Origin: Vicingaceae bacterium
GTDB lineage: Bacteria > Bacteroidota > Bacteroidia > Flavobacteriales_E > Vicingaceae
NCBI GenBank assembly: GCA_026003395.1
Contig: BPHE01000018.1
Coordinates: 1 to 38,126 of the forward strand
Direction: 5' to 3'
DNA: 38,126 nucleotides
The notes under the pieces were generated by a model. That model ran no database searches, was not told where the DNA came from, and saw only the letters and a list, made by a program, of their open reading frames with translations. Position numbers and translations under genes: made by a program. Position 1 is the first letter of the stretch; the number at the start of each line of letters is the position of its first letter. Shown one piece after another: positions 7,157-15,392 of this stretch.

Positions 7157-8455
7157 TTACTTTTTCATCATTTTTAAATATAAATTTCTTCTTTCACTAA
7201 AATCAACTATCGGTTTTGGTGCATCTTCAAGGTCATATGGCAACCATTTTTTTAAATACACAAGGTTTGGATCGAACTTTTGTTGTTGCAACCAAGGATT
7301 AAATATTCTGAAATAAGGCGCAGCATCGGCACCGGTGCCGGCAGCCCACTGCCAATTACCAACATTTGAGGCCAATTCGAAATCAAATAGTTTTTCCGCA
7401 AAATATCGCTCGCCCCAACGCCAATCAATCCATAAGATTTTGGTCAAATAGTTGGCCACTACCATTCTGAGACGATTGTGCATATAACCGGTAGAGTTGA
7501 GCTGATGCATGGCTGCATCAATAATTGGAACACCGGTGGATGCATTTTTCCATTTTTCAAAATATGCTTCGTTATTTTCTTGCGGGATGTCAATTTGCCT
7601 AAAATCATCTTTGACAGTAAAAGGAAAATGATAAATCAAATATTGAAAAAATTCCCTCCAAATCAATTCATTGAAATACTTTTGATTGTTGAGTGCCATT
7701 TTGAATAGTTTTCTGATGCTTATCAACCCAAATCTCAAAGCGGTTGAAACGTTTGTTGTGCCTTTTTCAAAAGAAAAATTATCCCTTGTTTGATGGTAGT
7801 TTGAAATGATTTTTTTCATTTCCTGAAAATCAAAGAGATGATATTGAATAGTGGATGGCTTGAAACCAATCTCTTGCAATGATGGAAAATGCCAATCGGC
7901 AGGCAATTTCATCAGATTTTCCAACAATTTTTCCGAAGGATAATGTTTTAAATGGGTTGCAGGTTCAAAAATAGACTTCCATTTCTTGGAAAAGGGTGTA
8001 TATACACGGTATATCTCTTCGGAGTCAGATTTTATTTCATCAAGAGATAATATGATATGGTCCCTCACTAGTATCAGTTCAATTTCTTTTCTGTCGAGCA
8101 ATTGTTGTATTTCGCCGTCTCTTTGAGCGGCATATGGTTCATAATCTTCATTGGCAAAGACCTTGTTGATATGGTATTTTTGTGTGAGAAATTCAAATGC
8201 CTCGGCCGGTTTGCCTTTAAATATGAATATGCCGGAGGAATGTTGGTTTGCCACAAGTAAATTCAAATCTGACAAACGATCGTAAATCAGAGAAACTCTA
8301 TGATCGTTCTCCGGCAATTCGTCAAGTATGTTTCGGTCATAAATAAACACAGGCAAGACAGGTATTTTTTCTGATAGGGCAAGATACAGGGCATGGTTAT
8401 CATCCCATCTTAAATCCCTTCTGAACCAGAAGACATTAATTTTGTTAACGTTCAT
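7157..8455 (-). CDS. phrB: Deoxyribodipyrimidine (CPD) photolyase
   Basis: Light-driven flavoenzyme that splits UV-induced pyrimidine dimers (432 aa). The N-terminal antenna-cofactor Rossmann domain opens with VFWFRRDLRWDDNHAL (about 8-23). The C-terminal FAD domain has the motifs ELIWREFFQY, GVPIIDAAM, GYMHNRLRM, and the DNA/FAD signature LASNVGNWQWAAGTGADAAP with the Trp residues expected for electron transfer. The ATG at 8453-8455 is chosen because it places the RRDLR motif at residues 12-16, the normal spacing; the longer ORF overlaps the upstream gene by 47 nt. It sits 4 nt after the SRPBCC gene and 5 nt before the TonB receptor. Class I CPD photolyase is favoured over cryptochrome because there is no C-terminal extension. 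Confidence 0.95.
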   Translation of the reverse strand: MNVNKINVFWFRRDLRWDDNHALYLALSEKIPVLPVFIYDRNILDELPENDHRVSLIYDRLSDLNLLVANQHSSGIFIFKGKPAEAFEFLTQKYHINKVFANEDYEPYAAQRDGEIQQLLDRKEIELILVRDHIILSLDEIKSDSEEIYRVYTPFSKKWKSIFEPATHLKHYPSEKLLENLMKLPADWHFPSLQEIGFKPSTIQYHLFDFQEMKKIISNYHQTRDNFSFEKGTTNVSTALRFGLISIRKLFKMALNNQKYFNELIWREFFQYLIYHFPFTVKDDFRQIDIPQENNEAYFEKWKNASTGVPIIDAAMHQLNSTGYMHNRLRMVVANYLTKILWIDWRWGERYFAEKLFDFELASNVGNWQWAAGTGADAAPYFRIFNPWLQQQKFDPNLVYLKKWLPYDLEDAPKPIVDFSERRNLYLKMMKK

Positions 8456-8459
8456 GGAT

Positions 8460-8921
8460 TCAGCATTTATTAAAGATTTCCATAAGTTTCTGATGACGGA
8501 AGTCAAAAATTTGTCTCAACCTCTTTTTGACAATTAAAGCATTAGCAATATCTCCCAAAATACCTAAAGGAATCTTGTAATGTACGATGTCTTCGGCTAA
8601 CACGCCGTTTTCGGTTTCTTTGAATAGATGCTGATGATGCCAAAAACTGTAGGGGCCGAAACGTTGTTCGTCCACAAACATCTCTTTTTCTTTTACATGA
8701 GTAATTTCCGTAACCCAGGTGCTTTTGTAGAACGGGAAGGGACTAACCTTGTATGTGATTATTTGCCCCGGATACATTTTTCGGTCTGCTCCCCACAAAA
8801 TTTCAAATGACAAATCTTTCGGAGTAATTTCGTTCAAATTGTGTGGGTCTGAGAAAAAATCCCATGCTTGATCGATAGTCGTTTTCAACAATATTTTATC
8901 ATGCAACCGATATATCATCAT
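8460..8921 (-). CDS. SRPBCC-fold (START/Bet v1-like) protein
   Basis: A 153-aa protein of the SRPBCC superfamily, which forms a deep hydrophobic ligand pocket. Support comes from the opening strand and helix (DKILLKTTIDQAWDFFSDP, about 8-26), the helix LNEITP, and the YKVSPFPFYKSTWVTEITH strand pair. The same kind of small protein often lies beside TIGR01777 epimerases and photolyases in light-controlled loci. The ligand is unknown; a hydrophobic molecule is an inference from the fold. The start could be either of the two adjacent ATGs at 8916-8921. It is 37 nt downstream of the epimerase gene and 4 nt upstream of the photolyase, so co-transcription is very likely. Confidence 0.85.
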   Translation of the reverse strand: MMIYRLHDKILLKTTIDQAWDFFSDPHNLNEITPKDLSFEILWGADRKMYPGQIITYKVSPFPFYKSTWVTEITHVKEKEMFVDEQRFGPYSFWHHQHLFKETENGVLAEDIVHYKIPLGILGDIANALIVKKRLRQIFDFRHQKLMEIFNKC

Positions 8922-8958
8922 TCCATTAAATTTTTAAGTTAATTTCTATCAATTTCAA

Positions 8959-9876
8959 TCACAGTTTAAATGATTTTAATGATTCTTGAAAATCGTTAAA
9001 CAAAAGTTCAAAACCTGCTTTTTTTAATTTTTCGTTGCTGACTCTTACACCTGTGGTAAGCATTTTGTGTTGTTCTCCAAAAATCAATTTGAGAACGAAC
9101 TCAGGCACTCTGAAAGACCACAATGGGCGGCGAAAATGTTTGGCTAAGATTCTGACCATTTCATCATAGGTAAGTTGCATATCGCCGACGGCATTGTAGA
9201 GACCGGCTTTTTGAGTATTTTCAATCAAAAACTCAAAGATCCTGCATAAATCATCGATATGAATCATGGGAAGAATCTGACAACCGGGCGAAATGGACAT
9301 TCCCAACCCCCATTTTACCGGTATGGCTGCTTTTGGAAGAAAACCTCCTTTGTCGGACAATACCAATCCGATACGCAAGACAGCCACTTGATTGCACAAT
9401 TTGTCAAACGGCCGATAGCTCCTCTCCCATTCACTGCATGTTTTGCCGAAAAAATCATTGGCAGGCGGATCGGTTTCATAAAATATCTTGTCGCTGATCA
9501 ACATTCCGTAAAAACCTACTGCACTTGCTCCAATAAACAATTCTGGTTTGACCTTTTGCTTTTCAATGGCGTATGCAAGCGTATGACTACTTTGCACTCT
9601 CGAAGCCAAAATTTTCATTTTGTAATCATCTGTCCACCTGTGTCCTGCAATATTTTGCCCGGCGAGGTTAATTACGACATCCACATTTTCAAGAGCAGAT
9701 TTGTCAATAAAATTTTTCCCGGGTTCCCACAAAAAAACTTGTAAGTTATCGTTTTTCCGGATATTTCTAACATTTCTTGACAACCATCTTATCCGATATT
9801 TTTTTCTTAACAAATGTTCAGTTAAATGTCGTCCCACAAGACCCGAACCTCCGGCTATTAATATAGTTTTACTCAT
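8959..9876 (-). CDS. TIGR01777 family NAD(P)-dependent epimerase/oxidoreductase
   Basis: Extended short-chain dehydrogenase-like protein of the YfcH/SulA type (305 aa, the usual length). The nucleotide-binding motif GGSGLVG is at residues 9-15, followed by the family signatures VINLAGQNIAG (about 67-77), GASAVGFYG and SFRVPEFVLKLIFGE near the C-terminus (domain DUF1731-like). The reaction is unknown for this family. It is the first gene of the minus-strand operon with the SRPBCC protein, photolyase and TonB receptor, and is divergent from the CarH-like regulator across 115 bp. Control by that regulator is therefore plausible. Confidence 0.9.
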   Translation of the reverse strand: MSKTILIAGGSGLVGRHLTEHLLRKKYRIRWLSRNVRNIRKNDNLQVFLWEPGKNFIDKSALENVDVVINLAGQNIAGHRWTDDYKMKILASRVQSSHTLAYAIEKQKVKPELFIGASAVGFYGMLISDKIFYETDPPANDFFGKTCSEWERSYRPFDKLCNQVAVLRIGLVLSDKGGFLPKAAIPVKWGLGMSISPGCQILPMIHIDDLCRIFEFLIENTQKAGLYNAVGDMQLTYDEMVRILAKHFRRPLWSFRVPEFVLKLIFGEQHKMLTTGVRVSNEKLKKAGFELLFNDFQESLKSFKL

Positions 9877-9921: not shown

Positions 9922-9976
9922 ACCTCTATATTAACATTTTTTTTTTAACTTTTGTGTAAATTATTTAAACATTTAT

Positions 9977-9984
9977 TAATTTTG
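9977..9984 (+). promoter_or_regulatory. Predicted -7 box for the carotenoid operon, very close to the start codon
   Basis: TAATTTTG matches TAnnTTTG exactly and ends only 7 nt before the ATG at 9992. A TTG at 9952-9954 lies 22 nt upstream. Transcription should begin within a few bases of the ATG, so the mRNA is probably leaderless. Confidence 0.55.
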
Positions 9985-9991
9985 CTTCACT

Positions 9992-10897
9992 ATGTCATTA
10001 GAATTAGATATTGGTACTTTGTCCGGATTGACGGGAGTTAAGCCCCACAACCTCAGAATGTGGGAAAAAAGATACTCTATTTTTGAGCCACAAAGGACAC
10101 CCGGAGGCACAAGAATTTATACCGACAAAGATTTAAAGAAACTTCTTACCATTCAGGAACTTATCAATCTTGGTTATAAAATATCGGAAGCCATCAACCT
10201 TTCGGAGAATGAACGCAAAAAAGTAATCTTGCAAACATTGGACAATGCCCTCTCAAATGACACTTATGCCATTTTTATCAATGAAATGCTTAAATGTGCG
10301 GTAGATTTGGATGAAACTCATTTTGAACTATATTTTCGAAAATCTGTAGAACGTTTTGGAAAAGTATATACCATCACCAATATCATTTATCCTTTGCTCA
10401 ACAAATTAGGCGCTTTATGGAAGATAGACAACATAAGCCCGCTGGAAGAACACTTTGCTTCACAAATCATCACCCGAATGATCCAAGAGTGGATTTCTTT
10501 GCTTCCCATTAGAAACATACATTCAAGAAAATTCGTATTGTTTTTACCACCCAATCATTATCACCAAATTCCTTTATTATTTGCCAACTACCTCTTGAGA
10601 AAAAAGGGATTTAAAACTTATTACCTCGGAGAAGATGTCCCCTTGGAAAATTTGAAACGGTTCACCGAAATGTTTAAAGAAGATGTTGTCTATCTTACCT
10701 TTTTATTATATAGAAATGAGAAAGAAAGCGTAAAAATTGCCGGAAATTTGTTTGAAATATTGGGAAATAACGCGTCTGTATGGATTTCAGGAGAAAAAAA
10801 CAATTTAACTTCAATAAAAAAAACTTTTAACGATAATAAAAACTTAGCTATAGTGAAAGATTTAAATGAATTTTATCTAAAAATTAAAAAAATCTGA
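9992..10897 (+). CDS. MerR-family regulator with degenerate B12-binding domain (CarH/LitR-like)
   Basis: Transcription factor (301 aa) with three parts. An N-terminal MerR winged helix covers residues 1-75 (SGLTGVKPHNLRMWEKRY and TPGGTRIYTDKDL). A four-helix-bundle cobalamin-binding region (about 85-175) carries the W-x9-EH motif as Trp143, Glu153, His154. A Rossmann-like B12-binding domain covers about 180-300. In light-sensing CarH the last domain holds ExHxxG, SxL and GG boxes. Here they read HxHxxP (His189, His191, Pro194), TxL (Thr236, Leu238) and SG (266-267): the axial His is kept, most of the rest is changed. It probably controls both its own carotenoid operon and the divergent photolyase operon. 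Whether it still binds cobalamin is open. Confidence 0.9.
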   Translation: MSLELDIGTLSGLTGVKPHNLRMWEKRYSIFEPQRTPGGTRIYTDKDLKKLLTIQELINLGYKISEAINLSENERKKVILQTLDNALSNDTYAIFINEMLKCAVDLDETHFELYFRKSVERFGKVYTITNIIYPLLNKLGALWKIDNISPLEEHFASQIITRMIQEWISLLPIRNIHSRKFVLFLPPNHYHQIPLLFANYLLRKKGFKTYYLGEDVPLENLKRFTEMFKEDVVYLTFLLYRNEKESVKIAGNLFEILGNNASVWISGEKNNLTSIKKTFNDNKNLAIVKDLNEFYLKIKKI

Positions 10898-10906
10898 AAA
10901 TAATCG

Positions 10907-12394
10907 ATGAATCATAAACCTCGCATAGTCATCATTGGTGCCGGCATTTCGGGAATGTCGGCTGCTTGTCATTTGTCCCGGATGGGATTTGAAGTGACGG
11001 TGTTCGAAAAAAATGAACAACCGGGCGGAAGAATAGATTTTTTTGAATCCTCCGGATTCGCTTTCGACATGGGGCCCAGTTGGTATTGGATGCCCAATGT
11101 TTTTGACCGGTTTTACGAATCTTTCGGCTATAAAACATCTGATTTTTATCAACTGATTCCCCTGGATCCGGGTTTTGAGATTGTTTTTGAAGAAAACAAA
11201 AGTTTTCCTGTTTGGAAAAATTTAGAACAACTTTACGAAGAGTTTGAAAAAACAGAACCGGGAAGTGCCGAAAAATTCGAGCACTACCTCAAAAAAAGCA
11301 AAAAAATTTATGAAGTGGCAATGGGCGATATGGTCTATAAGCCATATCTTTCTTTACTGGACTTTATCGATCCCCAAGCATTCAATCCGGTGTTGATTAA
11401 ATCAGTTTTTACTACTGTCAGCAAGGAAGTGAGAAAACTTTTTAAACATCCCCATCTTCGTCAATTGCTTGAATTTCCGGTGATATTTTTGGGTTCGACA
11501 GCCGATAAAATACCTGCATTGTATCACCTGATGAATTATGCCGCTTTTGTAGAAGGAACATGGTATCCGGAAGGCGGAATGTACCAAATTGCCAAAGCTT
11601 TTGAAACCATTGCCAAGGATTTGGGTGTTCAATTTTATTACAATACCCCTGTAAAGAAATTGGTTTTAGAAGGAAATCTGGTTAAAGGAGTTCACATTGA
11701 CAATGATTACATTCAGGCCGATGCTGTATTGTCCTCGGCTGATTATGTTTTTACGGAAAAATTATTACCCGAGTCATACCGCAATTACGATGAATCCTAT
11801 TGGGAAAAAAGAACATTTGCTCCTTCTGCCTTGCTGTTTTATCTCGGAATTGACAAACCTCTGCCAAAACTACGGCATCACACATTGTTTTTTGACGCGG
11901 ATTTTGAATCTCACATTGCTAAGGTTTATAATACTCATCAATGGCCCGAAAACCCTTTGTTTTACGTTTCGGCAACTTCTAAAACAGACAAAAGCGTGGC
12001 ACCTCCGGGCAAAGAAAATTTGGTCATATTGGTTCCTGTTTCGGTAGAGATTCAAGAAAATAAGGAAAGTATTGATGCCATCTACAATAACATCATTTCA
12101 CGTTTGGAAAAATTCTCCGGTGAAAGTATAGCTCCTTATGTTGTATTCAAAAAACATGTCGCCAAAAAACATTTTATAGACCGATATAATTCATTTAAAG
12201 GAAATGCCTATGGTTTAGCCAATACCTTAATGCAAACCGCGATTTTTAAACCGAAAATGAAAAATTACAAAATAAAAAATTTATTTTACACAGGACAGCT
12301 TACCGTGCCGGGTCCGGGATTACCTCCCTGTATTATTTCTGGTGAAATAGCAGCCGGTTTAATTCAAAATTTTTTAAATTTACAATATGAATAA
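10907..12394 (+). CDS. crtI: Phytoene desaturase
   Basis: FAD-dependent CrtI-type desaturase (495 aa) converting phytoene to lycopene at the membrane. The N-terminal FAD motif is VIIGAGISGMSAA (about 8-20), followed by GGRIDFFESSGFAFDMGPSW, a hallmark of the CrtI family. The C-terminal signature TGQLTVPGPGLPPCIISGE is intact. It starts 9 nt after the regulator stop and overlaps crtB by 8 nt through the sequence ATGAATAA, where the crtB start and crtI stop are interleaved. CrtO-type or carotene isomerase functions are less likely given the crtB partner and length. Confidence 0.95.
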   Translation: MNHKPRIVIIGAGISGMSAACHLSRMGFEVTVFEKNEQPGGRIDFFESSGFAFDMGPSWYWMPNVFDRFYESFGYKTSDFYQLIPLDPGFEIVFEENKSFPVWKNLEQLYEEFEKTEPGSAEKFEHYLKKSKKIYEVAMGDMVYKPYLSLLDFIDPQAFNPVLIKSVFTTVSKEVRKLFKHPHLRQLLEFPVIFLGSTADKIPALYHLMNYAAFVEGTWYPEGGMYQIAKAFETIAKDLGVQFYYNTPVKKLVLEGNLVKGVHIDNDYIQADAVLSSADYVFTEKLLPESYRNYDESYWEKRTFAPSALLFYLGIDKPLPKLRHHTLFFDADFESHIAKVYNTHQWPENPLFYVSATSKTDKSVAPPGKENLVILVPVSVEIQENKESIDAIYNNIISRLEKFSGESIAPYVVFKKHVAKKHFIDRYNSFKGNAYGLANTLMQTAIFKPKMKNYKIKNLFYTGQLTVPGPGLPPCIISGEIAAGLIQNFLNLQYE

Positions 12395-13238
12395 TTATGA
12401 TTTATACAAAAACACGTCATTTGAGTTGTCAAAGCAAATCACCAACCGTTATAGCACGAGTTTTTCCATCGGAACGCAACTATTGGATAAGAACATTAGG
12501 CCACATATTTACGCTATTTACGGTTTTGTCAGATTAGCCGACGAAATTGTGGATACATTCCACCAACACGATAAAAAAAAGCTTTTAGACGAATTTGTCG
12601 AAGATACTTACCTTGCCATCGAACGCAAAATATCCACCAACCCTGTCTTGCATGCCTTTCAACATACGGTCAATCAATTTCACATTGACAAATCATTGAT
12701 CGACGCTTTTTTAAACAGTATGTACATGGATTTAGAAAAAAATGTACATGACGAGAAATCTTTTAAACAATATATTTATGGCTCAGCGGAAGTAGTAGGA
12801 CTTATGTGCTTAAAAGTTTTTGTTAACGGAGATCAACAAACTTATGAAAAGCTTTTGGCACCTGCCCGTGCTTTGGGATCGGCATTTCAAAAAGTAAATT
12901 TCCTTAGGGATGTGGGACATGACTTCTACGACCTTGGACGTATCTATTTTCCCGACGTCGATTTCAACAGGTTGAGCTCTGCCGATATCGATTTTATTTT
13001 CGACAATATTCAAAAAGATTTTGATTTGGCCTTGAAGGGTATCAAAACGCTTCCTGCAGGTTGCAAAACCGGTGTATATGTCGCCTATGTTTATTACTAT
13101 AATTTGTTTAAGAAACTAAAAATGAACAAAGAACAACTTTTGAAGAAACGAATAAGAATCAATAACCTGCGAAAGTTTGCACTAATGGTGAAGGCCTGGT
13201 TGGAATGTAACTTTATGAAAACAGTTACACATGAATAA
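12387..13238 (+). CDS. crtB: Phytoene synthase
   Basis: Head-to-head condensation of two geranylgeranyl diphosphates to phytoene (283 aa). The two aspartate-rich Mg-binding motifs are present: DEIVD (52-56) and DVGHD (175-179) in the signature FLRDVGHDFYDLGRIYFP. The early motif RYSTSFSIG (21-29) also matches the family. No GGPP synthase gene lies in the window, so its substrate must come from elsewhere in the genome. It overlaps crtI upstream and the unknown secreted gene downstream by 8 nt each, at identical ATGAATAA junctions, pointing to translational coupling. Squalene synthase paralogues are excluded by the crtI neighbour. Confidence 0.96.
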   Translation: MNNYDLYKNTSFELSKQITNRYSTSFSIGTQLLDKNIRPHIYAIYGFVRLADEIVDTFHQHDKKKLLDEFVEDTYLAIERKISTNPVLHAFQHTVNQFHIDKSLIDAFLNSMYMDLEKNVHDEKSFKQYIYGSAEVVGLMCLKVFVNGDQQTYEKLLAPARALGSAFQKVNFLRDVGHDFYDLGRIYFPDVDFNRLSSADIDFIFDNIQKDFDLALKGIKTLPAGCKTGVYVAYVYYYNLFKKLKMNKEQLLKKRIRINNLRKFALMVKAWLECNFMKTVTHE

Positions 13239-13698
13239 AATATTTCTGACAATGACTTTTTTCATTCTCATATTTTTGACAGGTATAAGCACATTTGGTC
13301 AAAGTGTGGAAGAAGCCCGTTTGCTTTTGAACAAAGCCAAAACGAAAAAAGATAGTTGCCTCTACTATGCCGCTTATCTGAATCAATCGACAAATCCTGT
13401 TGTAAAAGGATATGGAGCCATGATGCTTTTTCTTGAAGCAGACAATGTGTTCAATCCATTTTCAAAATTGCATTTTTTCAATTCCGGTAAAGCTATATTA
13501 GATTCTTGCATTCAACAGCATCCCGGTTTGTTGGAATTACGCCTGTTGAGATATGCCGTGCAAAATGAAATACCCTCTATATTGGGATATGACAACAGAA
13601 ATGAAGACAAAAAAATCTTACTTCAATCTATCCATTTAATTGAAAAAAAAGATGAATATTTATATAAACGTATAAAAGAAACTGTTTATGAAAATTAG
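13231..13698 (+). CDS. Unknown secreted protein inside the carotenoid operon
   Basis: I do not recognise this 155-aa protein. It begins with a clear signal peptide (about 1-23, hydrophobic IFLTMTFFILIFLTG, ending in TFGQ), so it should be exported to the periplasm. The mature part is predicted mostly helical, with patterns like ARLLLNKAKTKKDSCLYYAAYL that resemble tetratricopeptide-type helices, and two cysteines (near 43 and 92) that could form a disulfide. It overlaps crtB by 8 nt and idi by 11 nt, so it must be made together with the pigment enzymes. A role in carotenoid handling or membrane assembly is inference from position only. Confidence 0.75.
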   Translation: MNKIFLTMTFFILIFLTGISTFGQSVEEARLLLNKAKTKKDSCLYYAAYLNQSTNPVVKGYGAMMLFLEADNVFNPFSKLHFFNSGKAILDSCIQQHPGLLELRLLRYAVQNEIPSILGYDNRNEDKKILLQSIHLIEKKDEYLYKRIKETVYEN

Positions 13699-14251
13699 TC
13701 CTGACACACATCCAAAAGACATGTTGATTCTTGTCGATAAAAACGACAAACCCATTGGCACAAAAGACAAATTAACTGTCCACAAAGAAGGATTGTTACA
13801 CAGAGCTGTGTCAGTGATTTTAATCACCTCAGATCATAAAGTGTTGCTTCAACGGCGTGCCATGACCAAATATCACTCACCGGGTAAATGGGCCAACACA
13901 TGTTGCACACATCCCATGTGGAACGAAGACAACATCGAAGCATGCAAAAGGCGGTTGAAGGAAGAATTGGGCATCGAAAGCAATCAATGGTTTTACTGGA
14001 AAACCATACATTATGTTGAAAATGTAGGCAATGGCATGATTGAAAATGAAATCGACCACGTATATCTCACATTTTCTGATGAACATCCCGCCCCCAACCC
14101 GAGAGAAGTCATGCAATATACTTACATTCCCATAGAAGAATTGAAAGATTGGATAAAAAACAACAAAAGTATTTGCACATTTTGGTCCACTTTAGTTTTA
14201 AAAGATTTAAATTTGCATTTACTCAATTCAATAACTGATAGAATATGTTAA
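13688..14251 (+). CDS. idi: Isopentenyl-diphosphate delta-isomerase, type I
   Basis: Interconverts isopentenyl and dimethylallyl diphosphate, supplying precursors for carotenoids (187 aa, like E. coli Idi). It is a Nudix-fold enzyme: the active-site cysteine is Cys73 in NTCCTHP (68-76 region), metal ligands are expected at His38 and His75, and the Nudix-like helix is RRLKEELGIES. The second acid/base region is ENEIDHVY (about 119-126). It overlaps the upstream unknown by 11 nt and crtZ by 7 nt. Its place in the operon boosts precursor flow in step with pigment synthesis. Confidence 0.96.
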   Translation: MKISPDTHPKDMLILVDKNDKPIGTKDKLTVHKEGLLHRAVSVILITSDHKVLLQRRAMTKYHSPGKWANTCCTHPMWNEDNIEACKRRLKEELGIESNQWFYWKTIHYVENVGNGMIENEIDHVYLTFSDEHPAPNPREVMQYTYIPIEELKDWIKNNKSICTFWSTLVLKDLNLHLLNSITDRIC

Positions 14252-14703
14252 AATTTGCCATTATCACACTCATTACCTATGGCATCATGGAAGGCGTCAC
14301 CTGGATGACCCATAAATATGTCATGCATGGTTTTATGTGGTATTTTCATGAAGATCATCACGATCCACGTAAAAAACCTCATCCATTTTTTGAAAAAAAC
14401 GATGTTTTCTTTTTAATTTTTGCCCTACCATCCATGTTAATGTTTCTTATCGGGACTTTTTTTCCGCAGTATTCATACCTCAATGCAATAGCATCAGGAA
14501 TTACCCTGTATGGTTTGACATACTTTCTCATCCATGAAGTATTAATTCACAGAAGATTTAAATTTATGGACAGGTTTCGAAACATTCCGTATTTCAAAGC
14601 CCTTATACGTGCTCACAAAGCTCATCACAAACACATAGGCAAAGAAGATGGAGAATGTTTCGGATTGCTCTTGGTGCCCCGTAAATTTTTCAAAAACAGC
14701 TGA
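14245..14703 (+). CDS. crtZ: Beta-carotene 3-hydroxylase
   Basis: Membrane di-iron hydroxylase converting beta-carotene to zeaxanthin (152 aa). It belongs to the fatty-acid hydroxylase superfamily. The histidine clusters are all present: HKYVMHG (His23, His28), HEDHHD (His35, 38, 39), HRRFK and HKAHHKH near the C-terminus. Hydrophobic helices occur at about 1-18, 55-72 and 78-95. It overlaps idi by 7 nt and shares one base with the next gene (TGATG). With no ketolase (crtW) in the window, zeaxanthin is the predicted end product of this operon. Confidence 0.95.
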   Translation: MLKFAIITLITYGIMEGVTWMTHKYVMHGFMWYFHEDHHDPRKKPHPFFEKNDVFFLIFALPSMLMFLIGTFFPQYSYLNAIASGITLYGLTYFLIHEVLIHRRFKFMDRFRNIPYFKALIRAHKAHHKHIGKEDGECFGLLLVPRKFFKNS

Positions 14704-15392
14704 TGAAAATCAATGATGCACATTTTGTATATTTTCTGGTTCTTGCCGGCGTAATAATTTTTCCATTGTTGTTTTCTTTTACACGCAAATTTTATTTTAT
14801 TCGGCATTTAAAAAAATTTGTCCTGGCATCTATACCGGTAGCACTTTTTTTTATTGTATGGGATATTTTCTTTACTTCTCAGAATGTTTGGTGGTTTAAT
14901 GAAGATTATATTACCGGTATTAAGATATTTAACTTACCCGTGGAAGAAATATTGTTTTTTTTCGTCATTCCATATGCCTGTGTTTTCACTTTTTTCAATA
15001 TCGTTCAGTTTGATAAATACATACCGGTCAATTCTATACCGGCAAGAGTTTTTTTCACATTGATTTTTGTCTTGTCCATCATCCTGGCAGTGATTTATAG
15101 CCAACAATGGTATACATTTTCTACTTTTTTGATACTATCCTACAGCTTGTTTTTCTTTTTGTTTCTCTATTACGACCAAAAATTTTTAAAATACTTTCTG
15201 ATAGAATATGTATTGATCTTGCCATTTTTTCTGTTGTCAAACGGCATTCTCACCGGCAGTTTCTGGGTTGAAAACCCTGTGGTATATTACAATGATAACC
15301 ATCATTTGGGTATCAGAATTTTTAATATCCCCATTTGTGGATTTTTTTTATGGCATGCTTATGCTTTTATGGATTTCATATATTTTTTATGA
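14703..15392 (+). CDS. crtYcd: Lycopene cyclase, CrtYcd type, frameshifted near the C-terminus
   Basis: Small integral-membrane lycopene cyclase formed of two repeats, forming beta-ionone rings on lycopene. The first repeat is complete with the catalytic PxEE motif (Pro79-Val-Glu81-Glu82) in IFNLPVEEILFF. The second repeat begins the same way (IRIFNIPI, to residue 211) but then reads CGFFLWHAY and stops at 229. In the next frame, from 15349, the DNA encodes YGMLMLLWISYIFYEQ and continues to a stop at 15427-15429, which is what the family should have. One extra T near 15334-15336 explains it. As written the second active-site motif is lost. It could be a sequencing error, a real null mutation, or programmed frameshifting. 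Confidence 0.85.
   Translation: MKINDAHFVYFLVLAGVIIFPLLFSFTRKFYFIRHLKKFVLASIPVALFFIVWDIFFTSQNVWWFNEDYITGIKIFNLPVEEILFFFVIPYACVFTFFNIVQFDKYIPVNSIPARVFFTLIFVLSIILAVIYSQQWYTFSTFLILSYSLFFFLFLYYDQKFLKYFLIEYVLILPFFLLSNGILTGSFWVENPVVYYNDNHHLGIRIFNIPICGFFLWHAYAFMDFIYFL

Follow-up and report, generated by a model that had tools for sequence, protein, structure and literature searches.

In the stretch of Vicingaceae DNA analyzed here (the window, 38,126 nucleotides), a gene at 9992-10897 on the forward strand encodes a CarH-like MerR regulator of 301 residues, in which the acidic residue two positions before the axial histidine of the cobalamin site is replaced by a neutral one, His189. A second regulator without this acidic residue was found in Flavobacteriales bacterium UBA852 (L005/L066), which belongs to the same family of genomes. 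As judged from the sequences, this is a natural variant in which one key residue is cleanly changed, and only two genomes are known to have it. Few features of base-off/His-on cobalamin proteins are as constant as the acidic residue beside the cobalt-binding histidine. Two natural CarH-like proteins that do without it, each within an intact light-response cluster, make it possible to test directly whether photosensing requires the carboxylate relay or is only tuned by it; they could also yield green-light switches with other kinetics. We lean towards the view that the protein is a cobalamin-dependent, light-relieved repressor of a carotenoid and photorepair regulon, in which a neutral residue has taken the place of the carboxylate relay.

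Domain organization and predicted fold

The gene was defined from its open reading frame and translation, Pfam matches and an AlphaFold2 model; the frame is intact and the residues quoted in the sequence-only reading are all present. A winged-helix DNA-binding domain (residues about 1-72) matches Pfam MerR_1 (PF13411, 8.4e-16) and is followed by a four-helix bundle (residues about 90-173), which matches Pfam B12-binding_2 (2.4e-6), and by a Rossmann domain (residues about 178-301), which scores 11.5 bits against Pfam B12-binding, under the cut-off of 32.1. The best family for the protein is the NCBIfam CarH equivalog NF052513, at 111 bits against a cut-off of 400. These low Pfam B12-binding and NCBIfam scores count against a cobalamin-dependent repressor.

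The AlphaFold2 model, for which 65 homologues served as input, has a mean pLDDT of 93.3 and a pTM of 0.80. The best solved relative is TtCarH, and the modelled ligand domain superimposes on the TtCarH cobalamin-binding domain with a Z score of about 18 and an rmsd of about 2.4 Å over about 194 residues, a likeness which counts for a cobalamin-dependent repressor. The SCHIC domain of AppA, which binds heme, is also among the structural matches of the modelled ligand domain.

In the DNA-binding wing, residues 39-40 (10106-10111) lie in a GG-T stretch like the PGGH of Thermus CarH. This GG is common to the window regulator and the UBA852 protein while other Bacteroidota have TN, with Asn at position 39 in 144 of 148 other Bacteroidota homologues, and the DNA specificity of the window regulator may differ from that of its relatives.

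Conservation of the cobalamin-site residues

For the column counts, 150 Bacteroidota homologues were aligned, and the alignment was redone with Thermus CarH added; five sequences (Thermus, Azoarcus, Caballeronia, Eleftheria and Allorhizobium) served for comparison outside the phylum. The lower-ligand loop, His189-Tyr190-His191-Gln192-Ile193-Pro194 (10556-10573, forward strand), was recognized as altered from these counts, the codons and the UBA852 sequence. At column 189 the alignment has E in 147 sequences, D in one, H in the window (codon CAT, 10556-10558) and N in the UBA852 sister, and Glu also occupies this position in all five non-Bacteroidota relatives. The departure at His189 is thus real and nearly unique, and it is small. 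Just after the axial histidine, where 144 of the 150 homologues carry Glu or Asp, the window has Gln192 and the sister Ala, a shared change that the sequence-only reading had missed. In His-on cobalamin proteins an acidic residue is hydrogen-bonded to the axial histidine and adjusts both how imidazolate-like that histidine is and the redox potential of the cobalt; MetH loses most of its activity when either its His or its Asp is replaced (PMC6013808). The MetH effect, together with the disappearance of both flanking glutamates in both sisters, counts against a cobalamin-dependent repressor.

The axial His191 itself, which CarH carries in a Rossmann cobalamin-binding fold, is present in 150 of 150 homologues. 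The W-x9-EH motif (10418-10453, forward strand; located by conservation and codons), which caps the adenosyl group in TtCarH, is likewise intact, with Trp143, Glu153 and His154 each kept in 149 of 150. Both features had been reported as retained by the sequence-only reading, correctly, and they count for a cobalamin-dependent repressor.

Three further departures, each given by that reading as an alteration of the site, have to be judged differently. It described HxHxxP in place of ExHxxG, of which the loss of Glu stands (E or D in 148 of 150) while the proline is an accepted variant. Column 194 has G in 113 sequences, S in 27, A in 5, P in 4 and V in 1; Pro194 is rare, yet two relatives (L108 and L165) combine it with a normal ExH, and G or P at this place is allowed by the published CarH motif, D/ExHx2G/Px41SxT/Vx22-27GG (PMC9304148). 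Set against that motif, the regulator has the proline three residues after the axial histidine, and its His189 departs from D/E. The TxL element, Thr236-Phe237-Leu238 (10697-10705, forward strand), was placed as the counterpart of SxL/SxT-V by alignment with Thermus and proteobacterial relatives, and is ordinary. Column 236 is mostly F, Y, V or I in Bacteroidota, and in most of these sequences the preceding column holds Thr or Ser; Ser aligns with Thr236 in all five non-Bacteroidota sequences, and Thr236 would seem nearer to the canonical Ser than the residue of most relatives, under an uncertain strand register. Finally, Ser266-Gly267 (10787-10792, forward strand), the counterpart of GG, is the usual Bacteroidota state in the homologue alignment: S is the commonest residue at column 266 (59 of 150), G occupies column 267 in 120 of 150, and GG most often takes the form SG. 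The window protein does deviate from SxT/V and GG, as do most Bacteroidota homologues. If the site were a normal variant, the homologues should show the same residues, and this largely holds for SG and Thr, and fails for Glu. The four motif changes were also considered as a single coordinated loss of the B12 site; this was rejected because two of them, SG and Thr, are ordinary and the proline is found with a normal ExH. The position of the upper-ligand His132 of TtCarH is Lys144 in the window and is generally unconserved in Bacteroidota; the lysine counts against a cobalamin-dependent repressor.

A sister lineage without the acidic residue

The UBA852 regulator is about 50% identical to that of the window and has Asn-His-His-Ala-Ile-Pro as its lower-ligand loop. 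Trees built without the motif columns pair the two proteins (SH-aLRT 86 and 92), and when rooted on the Thermus and proteobacterial sequences they place the pair outside 78 other Bacteroidota sequences, with support that is not strong. Because Glu is found on both sides of the window/UBA852 branch, its loss is derived, and these comparisons identify it as a lineage trait, not the general Bacteroidota state. No third altered member was found among 46 genomes of the order and about 400 each in the class and the phylum, nor in a collection of 84,980 species searched with peptide patterns that could miss divergent ones.

The second genome bears on two other explanations. A sequencing error or early gene decay might be suspected in a genome of 33 contigs and 97.7% completeness, and we give it hardly any credence, for the frame is intact, the domain conservation is normal, and in the separate UBA852 assembly this acidic residue is also gone, replaced by another residue than in the window, with Pro194 common to both. 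Another cofactor, for example heme held through His189 and His191, or a different corrinoid, would fit the existence of B12-like folds with other uses and the AppA SCHIC match; this we regard as improbable, since the adenosyl-capping residues are kept, positive evidence is nil, and the Asn of the sister means that the extra histidine is no conserved ligand. His189 as a new conserved ligand was rejected on the same ground.

Conservation between the sisters was then compared with 1,551 canonical homologue pairs of like divergence. The four-helix bundle is 58% identical and stands at the 92nd percentile of those pairs; the N-terminal half of the Rossmann domain, at 51%, stands at the 48th percentile, and the DNA-binding domain, at 59%, at the 18th percentile. 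The sisters' ligand domain is conserved to the same degree as that of ordinary CarH pairs. A ligand-free domain would be expected to drift, and the sisters show no sign of it, which counts towards a retained constraint on the ligand domain and in turn for a cobalamin-dependent repressor.

The carotenoid and photolyase gene cluster

Directly downstream of the regulator lies a carotenoid operon (10907-15392, forward strand), assigned by Pfam and by the same order in UBA852. It consists of crtI (10907-12394), crtB (12387-13238), a hypothetical gene of 155 residues (13231-13698), idi/NUDIX (13688-14251), a crtZ-like gene (14245-14703) and the lycopene cyclase gene crtY (14703-15392); the hypothetical and crtZ-like genes have no Pfam match and were named from sequence and synteny, the other four by Pfam. 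On the reverse strand a divergent group (7157-9876; Pfam, kept in UBA852) holds genes for a photolyase/cryptochrome-family protein (7157-8506) and an SDR epimerase with DUF1731 (8959-9876), both identified by Pfam, and between them an SRPBCC-like gene (8460-8921), which has no Pfam match and was named from its sequence. The description of a CarH/LitR-like regulator adjoining photolyase and pigment genes is correct. All ten genes of the window cluster recur in UBA852 with their order unchanged, which counts for a cobalamin-dependent repressor. Canonical relatives also adjoin crtI/crtB, often with photolyase, and photolyase and SDR genes are near several of them.

Several differences in gene content were observed. 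In UBA852 the divergent operon (L066:7071-8952) has RudS-like (TudS-DUF1722) and TspO genes inserted among the photolyase, SRPBCC and SDR genes, and both are missing from the window cluster. In two canonical loci examined, an ECF-type sigma gene stands between the CarH-like gene and crtI (L182:10348-10851, L192:8580-9080); the window and the sister are without it, as are a few canonical relatives. A tie between the missing sigma gene and the altered site was rejected, as the canonical regulators of L183 and L190 also stand directly before crtI. The 155-residue hypothetical between crtB and idi is kept in the sister (42%) and in L183 (35%), and may have an unrecognised role in the carotenoid pathway.

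Host cobalamin metabolism and a possible mechanism

The window genome encodes a PduO-type adenosyltransferase, methylmalonyl-CoA mutase, MetH and an IcmF-like protein, and has a cobalamin riboswitch before a BtuB-like gene. With these genes the host is equipped to use adenosylcobalamin, which counts for a cobalamin-dependent repressor. No CarH homologue other than the regulator was found in the genome. A search for BLUF genes found none in this genome, and the PAS proteins that were found, in a search that was not exhaustive, have no LOV cysteine motif.

What was established directly is the sequence, the predicted fold, the conservation, the gene context and the host cobalamin metabolism, and from these we infer cobalamin binding, light response, oligomer change, repression and the effect of the substitution. 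The regulator would control its own carotenoid operon and probably also the divergent photolyase/SDR genes. In the dark, cobalamin, probably adenosylcobalamin, would be held between the four-helix bundle and the Rossmann domain, with Trp143, Glu153 and His154 capping the adenosyl group and His191 as the lower ligand, and the cobalamin-bound regulator would oligomerise and repress. Light would break the Co-C bond, relieve the repression and turn on the carotenoid and DNA-repair genes. The unusual part lies in the second shell around the cobalt ligand: where relatives have Glu, the window protein has His189 (Asn in the sister), which is neutral and able to hydrogen-bond and would stand in for the carboxylate relay. 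The axial imidazole would then be less imidazolate-like, and the redox potential of cobalt, the affinity or the switching rate would be shifted, with the site not abolished. The simplest interpretation is a retuned site that still binds cobalamin. Tentatively, and with clearly less confidence, the window and UBA852 proteins could be seen as a subfamily of CarH-like sensors that hold cobalamin on a His without an acidic partner and whose photoswitch would differ in its redox, kinetic or ligand properties, or that work free of cobalamin while retaining the full architecture.

The main competitor is a cobalamin-independent repressor in the style of Myxococcus xanthus CarA, whose Rossmann domain would only hold the oligomer together and whose signal would come from a partner protein or photo-oxidative stress. 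The loss of both acidic residues adjoining the axial histidine in both sisters speaks for it, as does the existence of B12-independent family members, namely CarA (PMC9304148, PMC8156234) and class II LitR (PMC9758184). However, the axial histidine, W-x9-EH and the conservation of the ligand domain are all retained, and neither a BLUF gene nor, within the limited set of PAS proteins, a LOV cysteine motif came to light as a source of the signal, so we judge it rather unlikely. The suggestion of the sequence-only reading that the sensor binds another chromophore or has lost light sensing likewise gained no positive support, given the retained fold, axial histidine, W-x9-EH, domain conservation, host cobalamin metabolism and cluster.

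Comparison with known systems

By descent, the sequence places the protein in the CarH/LitR family of MerR regulators. With TtCarH (PDB 5c8d; class I LitR), to which it is about 30% identical, it shares the domain order, fold, W-x9-EH, axial histidine, an RTPGG-type wing and neighbouring carotenoid genes. It differs in that the Glu two before and the Glu after the axial histidine are His and Gln, Gly is Pro, the second Ser is Thr, GG is SG and the upper-ligand His132 is Lys. In the literature other than the Jost et al. 2015 structure study of TtCarH, we found no TtCarH mutant at the acidic position. Canonical Bacteroidota CarH-like proteins (E/DxHxxG/S) resemble it in SG, in Thr/Ser near 236 and in adjoining crtI-crtB, often with photolyase; unlike it, they have a TN wing and an axial histidine still flanked by Glu before it and Glu/Asp after it, and in many of them the ECF sigma gene separates the regulator from crtI.

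CarA of M. xanthus belongs to the same family and regulates carotenoid genes, as the window protein probably does, and in each of the two proteins one signature motif out of two is incomplete. In CarA, however, the B12 motif is preserved and the Trp of W-x9-EH is gone (PMC9304148), whereas here Trp143 is present and the cobalamin motif is altered; the intact W-x9-EH argues against a CarA-type conversion (PMC9304148, PMC8156234). With class II LitR (PplR/PmlR of Pseudomonas) it shares the MerR domain, the four-helix bundle and nearby light-response genes such as photolyase. In class II LitR no Rossmann B12 domain can be recognised, and a short LOV protein acts as its partner (PMC9758184), whereas the C-terminal domain of the window protein matches the Rossmann domain of TtCarH and the PAS proteins found show no LOV motif. 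We file the protein as CarH-like and not as CarH, because it fails the strict two-motif definition at the acidic position.

Upstream region of the regulator

Tandem TnnACA operator repeats upstream of the regulator are weak in the window and absent in the sister; no clear operator repeats were found there, which counts against a cobalamin-dependent repressor. An Rfam scan of the window gave no match, and a sigma-70 promoter scan gave hits at chance level only. By eye, and without statistics, a possible Bacteroidota-type promoter was noted at 9952-9991 (forward strand), with TTG at 9952-9954 and TAATTTTG at 9977-9984, judged against the general Bacteroidota promoter consensus. This TTG-N22-TAATTTTG element ends 7 bases 5' of the ATG and would give a nearly leaderless mRNA, and within its spacer AAACATTTA is common to the window and the sister.
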